A model generated the notes under the pieces. It searched no databases. It was not told where the DNA came from and worked only from the letters and a program-made list of their open reading frames with translations. A program made the translations under genes and the position numbers. This document shows positions 5,001 through 18,978 of a stretch of DNA of 43,060 nt, piece by piece. Location: positions 1 to 43,060 of the forward strand of contig JAAFIL010000030.1 of the NCBI GenBank assembly GCA_013297775.1, given 5' to 3'. Within the stretch, counting starts at the first letter, position 1, and each line of letters starts with the position of its first letter. The stretch is from Bacteroidota bacterium (lineage in GTDB: Bacteria; Bacteroidota; Bacteroidia; B-17B0; Aurantibacillaceae).

Positions 5001-7104
5001 TATTGGTGGAGGTAAACCCCGGGTTTAAGGGATCTAAAAAATTAAAAATACCTGGCTTACCATAATTAAAATTCTTAAAAAAAGTACCAGCATTGCCCAC
5101 ACATTTCGTATTGGCACTATACAATACCGAATTAAACGAATTATATACATTCCGATAATACCCCTTTGCTAAACTATATGAAGTTTCAAATATAACCCCG
5201 CCTATGGCCGCCGCATCAATACTTGTTTTATTAAAAAGATACTTGTTACGGTGTATTAACCCTGGGCTTTGAGGCGTAGAAAATAACTGCGGTTTAAACT
5301 TAGCATGAATACTACTCGGTGCCCACGAGGCATTGTTTTCAATTAATGCCTTATCCGAATTTCGCAACAAAACAATAGATGCCAATCGCAATTCGGGGCT
5401 AACCAAATCGCCAGGGTTTAAGCTCGGCTCCACACTAAAATTGTCCATCCGCGTATCTTTTATAAAATACGCACTATGCGTAGCCGTTCTTATATAATCT
5501 AAATAATACTTCTCCGTTTCAACATTCGAAGTATAAAAGGCCTTTTGATACGAGGACCAAACAATGGTTTTATACTCTGTATAATTAGGTCGAAACGTTT
5601 GCCCGTAATTAAAGTAATTGCTCCCCTCTAAAAAATCGGGTGTCCATAAACTATATGCATACTGAATCCAATACCCCTCATCGCCCTCATCAACCGTTTT
5701 ATTTGCATTTTTATCCACATAATCCGTTCCCGTTACGGCTGTTAATTTCCAACTCACTGCATACGCATCGTGTATATAGTTAATGCCCATCTTTTGAAAC
5801 GGATCGCTTGGTTTTAAATAAATATCGGTGGGCGCATTCTGATAAATCTGTTTATTCAATTGCTTTTTATTATAAACTGGTAAAGAATAATGATACGTTA
5901 AGCCATTGGCATTGGTTATTTGTATGCCCCCTATTCCATCGGGGTCATAATTAGCGGTTGGTCGGCGGCTTTGCCCCGCCGCAACAACCCTATAATCAAT
6001 AAACCCCTTGCTGCCCGGCACCGTGCTATTTACCAAATTAGCCGCCGTATTAATTTCAGCATTGGTGTAATACCTCACAAAAACAGAAGCTGGTATATAA
6101 TTGGTGGCATTGTTGGTATAAGTGCCAGGCGTGCCATAAGTGGTTTGTTTGGTAGAGTTCTCAAAATGAAATTGCGTGCGCTTCATGTTAGGGTAATTCG
6201 CCAATTGAGGTAAGAGGTTTACATTAGTAGCTTCATCTATTAACGTAACACTTCCATCCATAATATAAGGTTTTAGCGTTCCACTCATCCCCGAACCCGA
6301 AACATAATAATTATCATAAGCAGCAAACCGCATGGGTGCCGTTCGCCTATTAAAAAACCGGTTGGTAAATGATTCTTGGTCAAAATTAATACCACCTTGG
6401 TTAGCCGCTTTATTGGTTTCCGAATAACTATTCGGGAACAAGCCCGTATTATAAATATCCCAAATATTTTTGGTATAGCCTATATTATCAGTCATCTTCG
6501 ACACCTCGCCCAAACTCCATCCATTAGCTGTAATAGGTGGAGGGATTGCATGTGTATTAGGAACCCCATTAATTTTACTATAATTAAAAGGCCCATAATA
6601 TTCAACGCCGCCATAACCTGGTGCTTTAACATAACTTAAAAAACCAGTACCATAATAAATCTCTGCATTGGTTACCCTTTGTCCCGCAAAATCATCGGGC
6701 ACACCCACCACTTGGCGGCTTATTTCACCTGGGTTCAAATCCCAACCCAAACCAATCCACGAGGCACTTTGGTTCATACGCACACCGCCCCCATAGTTGG
6801 CACTTAAAGGCACACTTTCGCCATTGGGCCCAGGCACCGTTAACAAGGGCACCGAATACCTAAAATCACCTGTGTATAAATCCACCATGCCGTCGGCCAT
6901 ATCCGCAACAGGGCCACCACCATTGTTACTTGCCGCTAAATAATAGGCCGTATTTACTAAACCCGCACACAACGTTTCCGTTACCACCGTCAATAATAAG
7001 GCAAAAGCAAAAATTCGGGTAAAAATTGGCGTGTAAATACGCTTAATAAAACGTTTACTAGGCTTTGTTAGGCTGGTTTGTTTAAAGAGGGTTAATCGCT
7101 TCAT
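2005..7104 (-). CDS. Large secreted RHS/YD-repeat-type protein (1699 aa)
   Basis: A long basic N-terminus of about 28 residues precedes a hydrophobic export segment (IFAFALLLTVV, residues ~31-47). The conserved N-terminal block of Bacteroidota RHS/YD-type surface proteins follows (DLYTGDFRYSVPLLTVPGP, then SWIGLGWDLNPGEISRQV). A long tyrosine/asparagine-rich shell region comes next, with YESKRLGYYYYLKSVSEK and TTTQTYDYDAVTGFP. A carbohydrate-binding-like beta module sits at ~1480-1640 (SGNYMAKV ... GEAYFDDLMVNP), and one YD repeat near the end (YYNYDAAGRILNVFGE). The protein stops soon after that repeat, so it has no RHS core and no C-terminal toxin; T9SS sorting is not obvious. It is the first gene of a three-gene operon. 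A weak -7-like box (TAAGTTTA on the minus strand, 7144-7151) lies about 40 bases upstream. Function unknown; a cell-surface structural or delivery role is inferred from the family. Confidence 0.85.
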   Translation of the reverse strand: MKRLTLFKQTSLTKPSKRFIKRIYTPIFTRIFAFALLLTVVTETLCAGLVNTAYYLAASNNGGGPVADMADGMVDLYTGDFRYSVPLLTVPGPNGESVPLSANYGGGVRMNQSASWIGLGWDLNPGEISRQVVGVPDDFAGQRVTNAEIYYGTGFLSYVKAPGYGGVEYYGPFNYSKINGVPNTHAIPPPITANGWSLGEVSKMTDNIGYTKNIWDIYNTGLFPNSYSETNKAANQGGINFDQESFTNRFFNRRTAPMRFAAYDNYYVSGSGMSGTLKPYIMDGSVTLIDEATNVNLLPQLANYPNMKRTQFHFENSTKQTTYGTPGTYTNNATNYIPASVFVRYYTNAEINTAANLVNSTVPGSKGFIDYRVVAAGQSRRPTANYDPDGIGGIQITNANGLTYHYSLPVYNKKQLNKQIYQNAPTDIYLKPSDPFQKMGINYIHDAYAVSWKLTAVTGTDYVDKNANKTVDEGDEGYWIQYAYSLWTPDFLEGSNYFNYGQTFRPNYTEYKTIVWSSYQKAFYTSNVETEKYYLDYIRTATHSAYFIKDTRMDNFSVEPSLNPGDLVSPELRLASIVLLRNSDKALIENNASWAPSSIHAKFKPQLFSTPQSPGLIHRNKYLFNKTSIDAAAIGGVIFETSYSLAKGYYRNVYNSFNSVLYSANTKCVGNAGTFFKNFNYGKPGIFNFLDPLNPGFTSTNMAQSGKLTLKAIRVLEEGNTELFDGYQFNYDEGNLLKNPNFNPEKTDLWGFYKADANYGLSNSGYATPASALHVDAWSLKTIKIPSGGLIRINYEADVFEREGYSDKPMARRSVSPLVSGVNKNKPYLLFPIVDAKQTSINSFPYDIVYNYRDVGDVDVAYGNGVGYGYANITALKPPNVSPTGTTTINRFIMVPFTGLCQYNTWSNVNVTYNYLEVSNAPSLYNTATSATVLPSHSVFNTSKYFFVPNQQNSPNNPIPLDNTWQSHPFTVGYSSSICQSGSAVYSYDPLLAMGYTYVCLNKMVGGGTRVKSVEISDPESGMNYKKDFSYEDGYCKAVPRPFVMAPYVGGRQDYQLWDNVEASIPYFNTTGVGYTKVTTKTTNTVPNTNLGIGKTVYEFNNYLIENPLQSKVRYYQAGSTSYAQCNLLGASHVQWGSETHGNCYKISHGKTYYIESILNDANVKQLGLLVREKRYSEDNVEVYAKENTYESFHFFEGYSTKHLYVPVAPVSPNCFGSHGFNPLIYPEGETYVYESKRLGYYYYLKSVSEKVDNITTTQTYDYDAVTGFPIKVTATGPTMGTSVKETEYAYTVPAFGKLGFKHYDENNTHELMVTSKERLFKNTKLVSEGRTDNLKSRLTRMREAPGTANNPYARYYTYFNDLAAANTTSTPLPVLLEAWATPLLTDAPVNGQNVVAPAVKTSGVVFFDKRGHVLEAEGVNGRKSATRYGYNMTLPLSSISNAGYNSFAFSSFEDLITIVPGVVHYGGEVSRGQTQSGPTTLAGFSGIVKPHSGNYMAKVAAANGPEVLLTQFDLNRTYEAKVWVHVGSAASASLYMTLVGITTTNVPLNLMVMVSKTDPANVTVGNWVLMRAKLNVPANLFMPVNPKNGSMVSSNEPQLKVSLVTGVGGEAYFDDLMVNPIDAPISGTVYDPKNLRVSATLNSENFGTYYNYDAAGRILNVFGESAQYGLKKLSEVEYTNCKSLQLALPNNGGVGGTN

Positions 7105-7353
7105 CTGTTTTTTCGGTTTATTGACTAAAAGTTAGAACGACATTAAACTTAACTTATAAATGGTCTCTAAAAAACTTGGTGTTTAGTATTAGTAGGTCAT
7201 TACATAATTTGTTTATAGGCTTTCATCAACTAAAAGTACTGGTTTCTCATTTCTACATCAGTTATTAATGAAACAAATCTAATAGTCAATTCTTCACAAA
7301 ACAATATTTTTTTGTTAAAAACTAAAATATGTTAATAATTTTTTAAGCCGTAA

Positions 7354-7533
7354 ACAAACCGTCGAAATCGTAGTGAAAAACAAAAGGGGCAAGGGTATTA
7401 AGAAGCGCAAGGTTCGAGGATTGTAAAAGAGGACTGTAAGAATAGCTAATACTATTTGGAAAACCGCAGAACCGAGAATTTCTAATGGCGGCATCAGGTT
7501 TTATTTTGTAATAGATTTCAACGGTCTGTTATC
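7354..7533 (+). repeat. Dispersed ~180-bp repeat, copy 1
   Basis: This stretch aligns end to end with 18751-18912. Shared blocks include GTGAAA.ACAAAA, GAAGCGCA, GGTTCGAGGA, ACTGTAAGAATAGCT, GAACCGAG.ATTTCTAA and TTTTGTAATAGATTTCAAC. Copy 1 has a short internal duplication of the GAGGAYTGTAA segment. It has no long ORF in either copy, so it is more likely a structured or mobile non-coding repeat than a gene. The rest of 7105-7620 holds only the RHS promoter region and AT-rich sequence. Confidence 0.7.
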
Positions 7534-7620
7534 GGTTAAACCTAATTGGTTAGCAATCATAACTCTAATGGCTTTGATTGCCGTTAAACCTTGTAACTCC
7601 TTTTACAAAAAAGTCCTTAT

Positions 7621-8080
7621 CTCATCCTTGTTTAGCGAAGCGTAACGCGAACGTTTGAGAACTGCGTTTGTAACGCAGCTAAAGTGATGGTGTGTTACTT
7701 TCTCGTCCTTGTTTAGCGAAGCGTAACGAGGACGTTTGAGAACTGCGTTTGTAACGCAGCTAAAGTGATGGTGTGTTACTTTCTCGTCCTTGTTTAGCGG
7801 AGCGTAACGAGGACGTTTGAGAACTGCGTTTGTAACGCAGCTAAAGTGATGGTGTGTTACTTTCTCGTCCTTGTTTAGCGGAGCGTAACGCGGACGTTTG
7901 AGAACTGCGTTTGTAACGCAGCTAAAGTGATGGTGTGTTACTTTCTCGTCCTTGTTTAGCGAAGCGTAACGAGGACGTTTGAGAACTGCGTTTGTAACGC
8001 AGCTAAAGTGATACTGTGGGCGTTACAAACGCCCGTCTAGCTCGTCCTCGTTTCCGCTAACGCTCAAACAAGGACGAGGG
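7621..8080 (+). repeat. REP array: five tandem 81-bp units plus inverted REP half
   Basis: Five near-identical 81-bp units start at 7621, 7702, 7783, 7864 and 7945. Each unit carries hairpin A (CGTCCTTGTTTAGCG paired with CGTAACGAGGACG around a GAA or GGA loop, with a 2x2 internal mismatch) and hairpin h1 (CTGCGTTTGTAACGCAG, perfect 7-bp stem). The array ends with the inverted half: h1' (GGGCGTTACAAACGCCC, 8018-8034) and hairpin B (8043-8076), which is a variant reverse complement of hairpin A. The RAYT gene begins 49 bases after the array. This is the organisation expected of REP/BIME substrates of a REP-associated tyrosine transposase. Confidence 0.9.
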
Positions 8081-8128
8081 GAAACAAGAGTGTTGTAAGA
8101 AAAAAGATAAATAATTATATTTGTTTTA

Positions 8129-8677
8129 ATGAGTGGTGATAGATACGTTATTGCGAACCAAGAGCAAAACTATTTTTTAACTTTAACTGTTGTTGATTGG
8201 GTAGATGTATTTACGAGAAAGGATTATAAGTTAATTATAACCGAATCGTTGAACTACTGTATAGAAAACAAGGGATTAGAAGTTTTTGCTTGGGTAATTA
8301 TGAGTAATCACATACATCTTATGATTAGAGCAAAAGAAGGATTTATTTTGTCGAATATATTAAGAGATTTTAAAAAATTTACATCTAAAGAAATTATAGA
8401 TAGAATATCAGAAGCTGGAGAAAGTAGAAAAGATTGGTTATTAAACAAGTTTGCATTTGAAGCAAAACGGACTGGTAGAGCAAAAAATTACAAGTTATGG
8501 CGCGATGATAATCATGCTATTTGCTTAGAGAAAAATGGATGGATAACACAGCGTTTAAATTATATACATCAAAACCCTGTTCGGCAAATACTCGTCAATA
8601 ATCCTGAAGATTATGTATTCAGTAGTGCTATTGATTATGCAGATGGGAAGGGATTAGTTAAAATCACAAAAATTTAA
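8129..8677 (+). CDS. REP-associated tyrosine transposase (RAYT, Y1/HUH family)
   Basis: The 182-residue protein has the single-domain Y1 transposase layout. The HUH metal-binding motif is His61-Ile-His63 in MSNHIHLMI, and the likely catalytic Tyr145 lies in RLNYIHQNPVR, a signature of the RAYT/IS200-like family, followed by the family's DYVFSSA motif. The length is usual for RAYTs. These enzymes nick single-stranded REP hairpins; unlike IS200/IS605 they normally stay as single chromosomal copies and spread REP sequences. Here the gene sits between a five-unit REP array (7621-8080) and an inverted REP pair (8688-8823), which are its probable substrates. The gene is AT-rich and uses AGA for most arginines, unlike neighbouring host genes, suggesting acquisition. 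The ATG at 8129 fits the usual short N-terminus. Motifs look intact, so it is probably functional. Confidence 0.9.
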   Translation: MSGDRYVIANQEQNYFLTLTVVDWVDVFTRKDYKLIITESLNYCIENKGLEVFAWVIMSNHIHLMIRAKEGFILSNILRDFKKFTSKEIIDRISEAGESRKDWLLNKFAFEAKRTGRAKNYKLWRDDNHAICLEKNGWITQRLNYIHQNPVRQILVNNPEDYVFSSAIDYADGKGLVKITKI

Positions 8678-8687
8678 AGTAACCTAC

Positions 8688-8823
8688 CTCGTCCTTGTTT
8701 AGCGAAGCGTAACGCGAACGTTTTAGAACTGCGTTTGTAACGCAGATAAAGTGATGATGTAGGCGTTACAAACGCCCGTTTAGCACGTCCTCGTTTCCGC
8801 TAACGCTCAAACAAGGACGAGGG
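8688..8823 (+). repeat. Inverted REP pair (BIME-like) after the RAYT gene
   Basis: A complete two-half element: hairpin A (8690-8720), h1 CTGCGTTTGTAACGCAG (8729-8745), h1' (8763-8779, with one mismatch in the stem) and hairpin B (8786-8819), followed by AGGGG. The two halves are imperfect reverse complements, so the whole can fold as one long cruciform or as four hairpins. It begins 11 bases after the RAYT stop and could also act as its terminator. Confidence 0.88.
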
Positions 8824-8834
8824 GAATTAAGAAA

Positions 8835-8900
8835 TGCTTAAAAAATGAGTTAGATGGAATTATGCAATAAAAATCTATTACGAGCCTAAATCCCTTCAAC
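8835..8900 (+). repeat. Dispersed repeat R fragment
   Basis: The segment contains ATGAGTTAGATGGAAT and then TATTACGAGCC and AATCCCTTCAA. The first part recurs at 12046-12146 and 18661-18750, and the second at 42996-43037. It joins two modules otherwise seen separately, so it may be a more complete copy of a dispersed intergenic repeat. No coding potential is apparent in 8824-9027. Confidence 0.65.
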
Positions 8901-9027
8901 AATAGTTACTTTTCTTCTTCACCTTAGTACTGCTGTGCCTCAGTCGAAAAAGTGCCTGTTTTATTGGGCGTTCACCTATCACTACCATTCCTATTACACA
9001 ACCTCGAATAATACCTTTTTTTAGCGA

Positions 9028-9058
9028 TTGTATTTTTTTAAAAGGCGTTATAATTTTG
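9028..9058 (+). promoter_or_regulatory. Bacteroidota promoter for the DUF4856 lipoprotein gene
   Basis: TTG (9028-9030), 20-base spacer, TAATTTTG (9051-9058), matching the phylum consensus TTG-N17..23-TAnnTTTG. It rules out the TTG at 9056 as a start and favours ATG at 9080, giving a leader of about 15 bases. Confidence 0.7.
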
Positions 9059-9079
9059 AAACCTGAAATATTTATTACA

Positions 9080-10213
9080 ATGAAAACTTCTTTATTTAAA
9101 ATACCTGTATGGATTGGTTTAACAACTTTGTTTTTTACATCGTGTAAAAAAGACACCACCACTCCTCTACCCGAGCCTAGCCCTGCTCCTTCGCCAAGTT
9201 ATACCATTCCAACAACGTATAACTTTTCAAATGCCGATTACACCGATGCCACCAACCGTTTAGCAATGATGGGCGAGTTAATCACTTACATTCGCACGGC
9301 TCACACCACAACGGCTGCGGTTCAGCCCACTTTATCGGCTCAAAAATTACAAGATATGTTTACCGCCGCAAGCAGTCCGTTTACAAATGCGGTATTAAAT
9401 GGCTCTAGTGTTCAACTTAAAAATCAAACAAGCAATCAGTTTAATTACATCGCCGATTTGGAAGCTAGTTTTATAGAATGTCAGCAAGCGAGTATTACTG
9501 GTGCTGCCACTCCAACTGTTAGTTCGGCTTCCTCTGGTGTTGCCGGAAAACTCGTATCTTCAGCGCGAGCCATTTTAGTAAATGCCAATGGATTCGAATT
9601 TAAAGAAATTGCGGAAAAAGGATTAATGGGTTCTTTTTTATACGCCAAAGCCTTATCGAACTTGAATACCATTTCAACATTTGATAATGCAACACCTGCT
9701 AACGGTTTAACGGCGCAAGAAAAAGCGTGGGACGAAGCCTTTGCGTATTTTGGTGTTCCGATTACTTTTCCTACAACAACCGTAGGGCTTAGGTATTGGG
9801 GCACTTATTGTAACTCGGTAAGTTCGGCCATTAACTCGAATGCCGTTATGATGAATGCGTTTTTGAAAGGGCGCGCAGCGATTAGTAATAAAGATAACGC
9901 TGCCCGCGATGAAGCCAAGAATACTTTAGTTGCTATGTGGGAAAAAGTATCGGCGGCCAAGTGCATTAGTTATTTAAAAAGCGCTAAAGCTAACTTAACC
10001 GACCAAGCCTCATTACACCACAATTTATCAGAAGCACACGGGTTTATTAAAGCCTTTCGTTACAACACTACTAAAACAATAACCGATGCCGATGTGAGTA
10101 TTTTACTTGGTTACTTTGGAACTAATTTACATAACATGACCACTACTCAAATTGATTTAAGCATTGCCAAATTAGAAACTGTTTTTAGTTTGAATGCCGC
10201 TTTAATTCCATAG
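9080..10213 (+). CDS. DUF4856 family lipoprotein
   Basis: From ATG at 9080 the protein has 377 residues. A lipoprotein signal peptide (MKTSLFKIPVWIGLTTLFFTSC) gives an acylated Cys, followed by a Pro/Ser/Thr linker (PLPEPSPAPSPS). The mature part begins TYNFSNADYTDATNRLAMMGEL, the hallmark of DUF4856, and is mainly helical with KNTLVAMWEKVSAAKCISYL and HNLSEAHGFIKAFRY. DUF4856 proteins are Bacteroidota cell-surface or periplasmic lipoproteins often found near iron-uptake genes and related to the imelysin fold; no such partner is present here, so a metal-related role is only a possibility. An upstream in-frame TTG at 9056 lies inside the promoter and is rejected. The gene stands alone between two repeat-rich intergenic regions. 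Confidence 0.85.
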   Translation: MKTSLFKIPVWIGLTTLFFTSCKKDTTTPLPEPSPAPSPSYTIPTTYNFSNADYTDATNRLAMMGELITYIRTAHTTTAAVQPTLSAQKLQDMFTAASSPFTNAVLNGSSVQLKNQTSNQFNYIADLEASFIECQQASITGAATPTVSSASSGVAGKLVSSARAILVNANGFEFKEIAEKGLMGSFLYAKALSNLNTISTFDNATPANGLTAQEKAWDEAFAYFGVPITFPTTTVGLRYWGTYCNSVSSAINSNAVMMNAFLKGRAAISNKDNAARDEAKNTLVAMWEKVSAAKCISYLKSAKANLTDQASLHHNLSEAHGFIKAFRYNTTKTITDADVSILLGYFGTNLHNMTTTQIDLSIAKLETVFSLNAALIP

Positions 10214-11932: not shown

Positions 11933-12017
11933 AAGCAGATATAGTGATGAAGTGGGCGTTACAAACGCCCGTTTAGCACGTCCTCGTTTCCGCTAACGCT
12001 CAAACAAGGACGAGGGG
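11933..12017 (+). repeat. REP right half (h1' + hairpin B)
   Basis: This solitary right half holds h1' GGGCGTTACAAACGCCC (11954-11970) and hairpin B (11979-12012) followed by AGGGG. A short remnant of the left half (GCAGATATAGTGATGA) precedes it, so it probably derives from a full inverted pair by loss of the left side. It lies in the gap between the glycosyltransferase and the wzx operon. Confidence 0.82.
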
Positions 12018-12045
12018 AGTATTATCAAACTAAAAATAATTATCC

Positions 12046-12146
12046 GAGATTTTAAGAAAGAAGTTATTTAGAATAGAATAGCTAACTCTGTAAAACGCTT
12101 AAAATCAACATTAAAAAAATGAGTTAGATGGAATTATGCAATAAGA
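12046..12146 (+). repeat. Dispersed repeat R copy
   Basis: It contains the blocks ATTTTAAGAAAGAAG, TTTAGAATA, CTCTGTAAAACGCTTAAAAT and ATGAGTTAGATGGAAT in the same order as 18661-18750; the right part matches 8840-8870. No coding potential is seen in 11758-12275. Confidence 0.65.
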
Positions 12147-12275
12147 ATCGAACTCAGATTAAAACTAAAATTTTTGAATGAACTTTAGCTTTTTATGAAG
12201 ATTATATCAAATTATAGTTAAACGTTGCATCCATTTTAACAGCGTATAAATCGCCAAAAAAAGGATTCAGTATGC

Positions 12276-17251: not shown

Positions 17252-17388
17252 CTCGTCCTTGTTTAGCGAAGCGTAACGAGGACGTTTGAGAACTGCGTTT
17301 GTAACGCAGATAAAATGTTGATATGGGCGTTACAAACGCCCGTTTAGTCCGTCCTCGTTTCCGCTAACGCTCCAACAAGGACGAGGGA
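17252..17388 (+). repeat. Inverted REP pair (BIME-like) after the polysaccharide operon
   Basis: Complete element: hairpin A (17254-17284), h1 CTGCGTTTGTAACGCAG (17293-17309), h1' GGGCGTTACAAACGCCC (17325-17341) and hairpin B (17350-17383). Both small stems are perfect although their outer base pairs differ. It lies 87 bases after the wzy-like stop. The rest of 17166-17457 shows only AT-rich sequence and a -7 box. Confidence 0.9.
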
Positions 17389-18660: not shown

Positions 18661-18912
18661 CCGTAATTTTAAGAAATCGTGTACTTTAGAATAAAATAGC
18701 AAACTCTGTAAAACGCTTAAAATCAATATTTAAAAATGAGTTAGATGGAATAAACAGTTGCAATCGTGGTGAAAGACAAAAGCTGCAAGGATATGAGGAA
18801 GCGCAGGTTCGAGGACTGTAAGAATAGCTGAAGCCATTTTGAAGACCGTTGAACCGAGCATTTCTAAGCTGCGGCAGATTTTGTTTTGTAATAGATTTCA
18901 ACTGTCTATTTA
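18661..18912 (+). repeat. Composite dispersed repeat (R copy joined to ~160-bp repeat copy 2)
   Basis: 18661-18750 repeats 12046-12140 (ATTTTAAGAAA, CTCTGTAAAACGCTTAAAAT, ATGAGTTAGATGGAA). 18751-18912 repeats 7354-7533 (GGTTCGAGGACTGTAAG, GAACCGAGCATTTCTAA, TTTTGTAATAGATTTCAAC). The two modules abut directly here. A short minus-strand ORF over this region is a shadow of the repeat. Confidence 0.68.
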
Positions 18913-18978
18913 CGCTTGAAAGACCACTGTTTATTGCTTACGGCTACTCATTTTGTATTCATAGTATTGAGTACTAAA

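Follow-up and report, generated by a model that had tools for sequence, protein, structure and literature searches.

The closest described relatives of the locus presented here are the REP-associated tyrosine transposases (RAYTs) of subclass 2.6, which corresponds to group 5 and is found mostly in Bacteroidetes (Quentin et al. 2018, PMC6006769). According to the available text of that article, these proteins combine the motifs NH[LIV]H and YIH[QN]NP and an SS motif with a median HuH-Tyr distance of 82 and a length of 179; their REPs, which were found manually, are 'atypical', with weaker secondary structure, no GT[AG]G and copies elsewhere. The RAYT biochemistry in the accessible part of the 2021 NAR paper (PMC8266576) concerns groups 2 and 3, whose REPs are single hairpins tagged with GTAG. 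The Escherichia coli and S. maltophilia RAYTs cut at CT, the GTAG at the foot of the hairpin being the likely guide (PMC8266576), and the E. coli protein has been solved in complex with a REP hairpin (4ER8). In Pseudomonas, an inverted REP pair, or REPIN, is the dispersed unit (Bertels and Rainey 2011, PMC3116915). CGTC-tagged REPs occur in Bacteroidetes too, mostly as inverted dimers (Di Nocera et al. 2013, PMC3733652).

We analysed a stretch of 43,060 nt (the window), which is contig C53 of a 4.35-Mb Bacteroidota genome in 128 contigs. It contains a RAYT gene with repeat structures on both sides (Table 1), and we consider it very probable that the locus is a Bacteroidota-type REPtron, consisting of a single-copy RAYT (a HuH-Y1 single-strand endonuclease) and its cognate REPINs. 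The system is of a known kind, RAYT/REPIN of subclass 2.6. An earlier reading of the window from its letters alone (the sequence-only reading) had presented it as a Bacteroidota version of RAYT/REP, which is borne out, except that Bacteroidetes RAYTs with unusual REPs had already been published, to judge from the available text of PMC6006769. The architecture of the REPs is another matter: in the literature searched, as far as its text was accessible, we found no description of a two-hairpin unit, its fixed spacing, a kept T at its foot or MITE-borne REPINs.

The window RAYT agrees with the published account of subclass 2.6 in its NHIH and YIHQNP motifs, the 82 residues from position 63 to 145, its length of 182 residues and its SS motif, and the gene is likewise flanked by structures that lack GT[AG]G and are copied elsewhere in the genome. 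It differs in having W124-R125, as does a 74% identical relative (L063), where the published motif is WQ. With E. coli TnpA-REP (group 2, REP/BIME; 4ER8) it shares the HuH-Y1 fold, the REPtron layout, inverted REP pairs and a CT dinucleotide on the 5' side, which in E. coli is the cleavage site (PMC8266576). The E. coli REP, as described there, is one bulged hairpin after GTAG, whereas in the REP of the window the foot itself is CT and two hairpins follow. As in Pseudomonas (PMC3116915), an inverted REP pair is the dispersed unit, but here a half comprises two hairpins, and MITE-like elements enclose many of the copies. We also considered the CGTC-tagged superfamily, given that CGTC starts a window hairpin. 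In the published repeats CGTC is unpaired and they flank no transposase gene (PMC3733652, available text), whereas the window repeats flank a RAYT and their CGTC pairs with GACG in the stem in the predicted folds of the B half and the A units; membership was therefore rejected.

Table 1. Positions of the RAYT gene, REP units and MITE-like elements in the window.
Feature	Position	Strand	Basis or remark
Diverged dispersed element left of the array, like 18749-18920	7353..7540	+	score 88, shuffle maximum 17
Five A units in tandem, period 81	7621..8018	+	sequence reading, repeat alignment, folding
Inverted B half, turns the last A unit into a REPIN	8020..8078	-	sequence reading, repeat alignment
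RAYT gene (TnpA-REP, subclass 2.6 / group 5 by motifs)	8129..8677	+	ORF, NCBIfam, motifs, alignment, fold
A half of the REPIN 3' of RAYT	8688..8761	+	sequence reading, repeat alignment
B half of the REPIN 3' of RAYT	8762..8822	-	both hairpins predicted (8755-8822, z -3.96)
MITE-1 right arm fused to the REPIN 3' of RAYT	8830..9008		limits by eye
Truncated REPIN, B half and only the 3' end of A	11933..12017	-	repeat comparison
MITE-1 copy lacking a REPIN, left part	12044..12150	+	limits approximate
Complete REPIN between two genes	17252..17385	+	repeat comparison

The RAYT reading frame is intact. In its translation HIH occupies residues 61-63 and LNYIHQNPVR begins at residue 143, which makes the catalytic tyrosine Tyr145. 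The NCBIfam model of REP-associated tyrosine transposases (NF047646) is matched with 95.4 bits (cut-off 80) and Pfam Y1_Tnp with 35.8 bits (cut-off 23). An AlphaFold model of the protein (mean pLDDT 92.8) retrieved 4er8_A at rank 1 from the solved structures (E 2e-8, TM 0.65/0.71), and a profile search likewise placed 4er8_A at the top (E 2.7e-8). The protein thus combines the HuH motif and catalytic tyrosine, the REP-associated family model and the fold of E. coli RAYT. W24, F28, R30, H61, H63, W124, Y145, S165 and S166, among others, are invariant in 43 aligned RAYTs, a selection out of 110 loci. The source genome has one match to the protein at E <= 1e-10, and REPs both flank this single gene and lie dispersed between genes, as in other RAYT/TnpA-REP systems. 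An IS200/IS605 element would be present in several copies, and its model NF033573 scores 28.4 bits here against a cut-off of 55. The other Y1 match in the genome (L031, C35:11842-12024) was rejected as a second RAYT, as it looks like a truncated remnant with stops; by eye we take it to be IS200-like.

Against six relatives, pN of the window RAYT is 0.14-0.28 and pS 0.72-0.96, values that fit purifying selection on the protein. Because dS reaches or approaches saturation in these comparisons, we claim no value of dN/dS. The RAYT relatives that bear names are nearly all from Bacteroidota among the best 80 of 552 confirmed stretches. The nearest RAYT in 100 related genomes, at 75% identity, is that of G089, which belongs to a different family, and RAYTs of the same genus are at most 50% identical to the window protein. 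This pattern would fit horizontal transfer, yet old paralogues followed by loss would look alike. A DUF4856-domain protein adjoins the RAYT (9056-10213).

The A units upstream of the gene lie head-to-tail, starting at 7621, 7702, 7783, 7864 and 7945, and have identities to the typed unit of 96, 100, 99, 98 and 97% (the value for the fifth covers 74 of 81 nt). The consensus A unit contains a hairpin H1 (CGTCCTTGTT...AACGAGGACG) and a hairpin H2 (CTGCGTTTGTAACGCAG). Both hairpins are predicted to form in the copies at 7702 and 7945; in those at 7621 and 8688 H1 has substitutions, and folding is no better than that of shuffled sequences (z -1.23 and -1.09). The REPIN at 8688-8822, which begins 10 bp past the RAYT stop codon, is an inverted REP pair able to form one long hairpin: as single-stranded DNA it folds with -40.2 kcal/mol (z -7.67), and 0/200 shuffles were as good. 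What the sequence-only reading had observed is confirmed, namely an apparently intact Y1 transposase with HIH at 61-63 and Tyr145, five tandem REP units with an inverted half on its left, a full inverted pair on its right and a unit of two hairpins. The two further copies that it reported fared differently: that at 17252 is a full pair, and that at 11933 lacks most of its left half. Its interpretation is supported in part, as set out below.

We consider it highly improbable that the five-copy array is an artefact of assembly. Several of the 128 contigs do end in or near REPINs, but the array copies carry differing point changes and have a common junction that is absent from the other listed units. 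Tandem repeats of another sort occur at L008, L156 and L178, where the repeated segment is an entire REPIN plus about 50 bp of its flank (periods of 186, 190 and 189); the 81-bp array at the RAYT, by contrast, consists of A units only.

Flanks of other RAYT genes were searched for the same architecture. We assembled 110 loci (30 matches in the genomes of relatives and 80 from a wider search), omitted the truncated L041, L048 and L051, and applied a strict test to 300 bp on each side of the remaining 107 genes: a perfect H1 stem of at least 8 bp, an H2 of at least 5 bp, a TT-NNN-AA apex on each and 2-25 nt between them. A two-hairpin unit was present on either side at 54/107 loci, compared with 1/773 distal windows of the same loci and 1/4280 dinucleotide-block-shuffled flanks; the rows of this and the other unit/RAYT comparisons are related by descent, some coming from one genome. 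Reading the same flanks in the opposite orientation gave 11 and 19 passes, which may be due to neighbouring inverted units. The test was failed by 53/107 loci, including that of the window (L033), where the reason is the expanded apex of H1; when the H1 loop is counted from its 3' side, the distance to the H2 loop in the window unit is 25 nt by eye, the spacing of a 28-nt unit. Judged by sequence, the two-hairpin unit is general among RAYT loci and not peculiar to the source genome. The unit lies upstream of the RAYT at 40-41 of the 107 loci, as might be expected if the array and hairpins only controlled RAYT expression, like the 5' hairpins of IS200 transposases. This explanation by analogy seems very unlikely to us, because inverted units also lie downstream (34-35/107; both sides at 21) and copies are dispersed genome-wide.

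The geometry of these units is nearly constant. In 75 units the loop-to-loop distance was 28 nt in 44 and 29 nt in 12 (56/75; range 27-41). A T lies at -11 from the H1 loop in 68/73 full-length rows, preceded by C in 48/73. For alignment we took units with a distance of 27-30 and an H2 of at most 9 bp, and removal of one near-duplicate from 60 distinct units left 59. All 59 have T at -11, a position that played no part in their selection. The base that faces this T is A in 17, T in 17, C in 14 and G in 11 units, and the base that precedes it is C in 42, A in 13 and T in 4. By comparison, the stem pairs covary (252 cells altered on both sides, 98.3% paired), although stem pairing was a selection criterion and the H1-H2 pair counts are therefore inflated. 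The foot of groups 2 and 3, GT[AG]G, was not found in these relatives' units, whose foot is [ACT]T in 59/59, and in the source genome it is CT in 92/93 copies. CT thus appears to occupy the place of the canonical GTAG, with a T that is kept without pairing constraint.

A covariance model of the unit was run on 100 related genomes, with at most 58 candidates scored in each; genomes with a match to the window RAYT at E <= 1e-10 were counted as RAYT-positive. At a model E <= 1e-4, matches were found in 19/47 RAYT-positive and 5/53 RAYT-negative genomes (p 0.0003), and without the source genome (G000) and G089 in 17/45 and 5/53 (p 0.0008); at thresholds of 1e-3, 1e-5 and 1e-7, again without these two, p was 0.006, 0.012 and 0.034, all p values being indicative only, as the genomes are related. 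The other 28/45 RAYT-positive relatives have no model match at E <= 1e-4. G027 and G035 contain REPINs built on the same plan, with CCCC and GGGG as their bounds, and G015 contains a related unit. At one locus of G035 (L275, C8), such a REPIN and a RAYT copy interrupted by one stop codon are a few hundred bases apart. G089 has 8 DNA matches and 10 model matches, far below the source genome.

In the source genome itself, the 12-mer of H2, CGTTTGTAACGC, occurs 97+94 times (191), and its reversed-pattern control 3+0 times. The exact 17-nt H2-A hairpin, CTGCGTTTGTAACGCAG, has 53+47 = 100 copies and its reversed control 0. These counts are far above the controls, and the repeats are therefore not due to chance. 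BLAST with the unit gave at least 83 genomic matches, with 40 of 120 candidates scored. We extracted 97 distinct A units, 90 of which are followed within 60 nt by an inverted H2 and are thus REPINs. The 93 complete A cores have a mean likeness of 97.6% and comprise 19 sequences (the commonest n=30); the units were picked by the exact 17-nt match, which inflates this likeness and excludes diverged copies. None of the 68 REPINs that have enough flank and lie outside the window is inside an ORF of at least 120 aa, as opposed to 1590/3400 (47%) random positions at the same loci. Near position 1557 of L203, a short palindrome (TTTTGGTTT / AAACCAAAA) has a REPIN between its arms, perhaps as the result of insertion into a hairpin.

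The absence of REPINs from long ORFs would be expected if the RAYT were a domesticated relict and the host retained the REPs for its own use, as terminators, mRNA ends or supercoiling sites. Such roles of REPs have been described in the accessible parts of PMC8266576 and PMC3733652, and the single copy and low pN of the RAYT fit as well. We regard this explanation as unlikely, given that a T kept without pairing constraint and a near-fixed spacing beside RAYT genes suggest recognition by the RAYT protein.

Many copies share flanking sequence beyond the REPIN ends. Much of it belongs to MITE-1, a dispersed element with terminal inverted repeats and the ends CCGAGAT...ATCTCGG (for example L187 and L246). 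Of the 15 MITE-1 copies in which both ends were found, 11 are bordered by a perfect 5-bp duplication (1000 shuffles gave a mean of 4.9 and a maximum of 10), and the left arm has 118 genomic occurrences at up to 3 mismatches. Arms of MITE-1 border 54 of the 97 A units, on both sides in 29, on the left alone in 19, on the right alone in 5 and in mixed form in 1; another 11 lie with a second repeat, fam3, 28 are beside neither, and contig ends cut off the remaining 4. At least 65/97 copies are therefore in MITE-like elements with terminal inverted repeats, and copy number alone is no evidence of RAYT activity; much of it probably reflects hitchhiking in these elements. The suggestion of the sequence-only reading that the system may still be active is compatible with the apparent purifying selection on the RAYT and with the (inflated) 97.6% likeness of the A cores, but the MITE-like elements could explain much of the dispersal without any action of the RAYT. 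The right-hand inner module of MITE-1 is present in both orientations. Some MITE-1 copies lack a REPIN (L246, L248, L268), but their junctions differ by more than the REPIN and are not clean, and we claim no exact insertion point from them. Nor was an orthologous empty site readable for the REPIN at 17252: 39/40 genomes of the genus (its own included) match the 1.8-kb stretch around it, at about 66-78% outside the REPIN and in pieces, and for the gene next to this REPIN the match in same-genus genomes is only 66-75%.

In the window, a reverse-strand alignment of the MITE-1 right arm covers 8859-9029 (score 92, shuffle maximum 15), and no left arm was found at 6901-7640 (score 12, shuffle maximum 17). 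A RAYT inside a complete MITE-1 was rejected, only the right arm being present. MITE-1 also occurs at about 18662-18930.

The copies outside MITE-like elements appear to have edges of their own. These 28 include the five array units, four of which were omitted from the left flanks together with repeated flanks, leaving 22 distinct sequences. CCC occurs within 9 nt in 16/22 left flanks (background 4.4%) and GGG within 7 nt in 11/17 right flanks (background 3.2%), the latter not deduplicated and some from tandem copies. The REPIN therefore seems to have its own ends, CCC(C)...GGG(G). A flank of about TTGCTTTACA..TTTACCGCTTTTGAG recurs to the right of REPINs without MITE-1 arms (L165, L166, L175, L177, L191).

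The numbers of nested copies and of MITE-1 arms, and the duplications around MITE-1, raise the question of whether the REPINs are passengers, spread by another transposase (probably of the DDE type) acting on the MITE terminal repeats, with a minor role for the RAYT. We hold this to be possible but doubtful. More than a quarter of the A units lie outside such elements, with the CCC and GGG edges just described, and REPINs occur in two element backgrounds, MITE-1 and fam3. The same plan recurs in G027 and G035, with a related unit in G015, and units are tied to RAYT genes at half of the loci tested.

We thus favour a REPtron in which the RAYT acts on its cognate REPINs. The sequences show the gene and the units, the dispersal of the latter, their conserved geometry and foot, and their nesting; binding and cleavage by the RAYT we infer, and it may still be active. 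The composite REP consists of the CT foot, H1 (about 10 bp), some 10 nt and H2 (mostly 5-7 bp) at a nearly fixed distance, the H1 apex usually being TT-TGC/TGT-AA (expanded in the window) and that of H2 of the same kind; two inverted units make one REPIN. In the single-stranded state, on the lagging-strand template or in an extruded REPIN, the RAYT would bind the H1-H2 unit, and the CT foot would serve it as cleavage site or guide, replacing GTAG. A bond between Tyr145 and the 5' phosphate, followed by rejoining of ends, would lead to REPINs being copied or joined, and the tandem A array may have arisen by such joining or by replication slippage. In the source genome, many REPINs have been incorporated into MITE-like elements bearing terminal inverted repeats and were probably multiplied as their passengers.

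A more specific proposal, which we put forward tentatively as plausible rather than probable, is that Bacteroidota RAYTs read bipartite single-stranded DNA: both hairpins, 28-29 nt apart, would be bound simultaneously, with the nearly invariant T of the CT foot replacing the GTAG guide, and in the source genome REPINs would also use MITEs as vehicles in a two-layer parasitism. Bipartite reading, if true, would be a distinct mode of single-stranded DNA recognition among the relatives of HuH transposases. The nesting in MITE-like elements is a caution against taking the number of REPINs as a measure of RAYT activity. The published text available to us describes the REPs of this Bacteroidota group as 'atypical'; the two-hairpin unit, with a kept T free of pairing constraint, is a ready substrate for the group, and it would allow a direct test of how HuH guide sequences can change.
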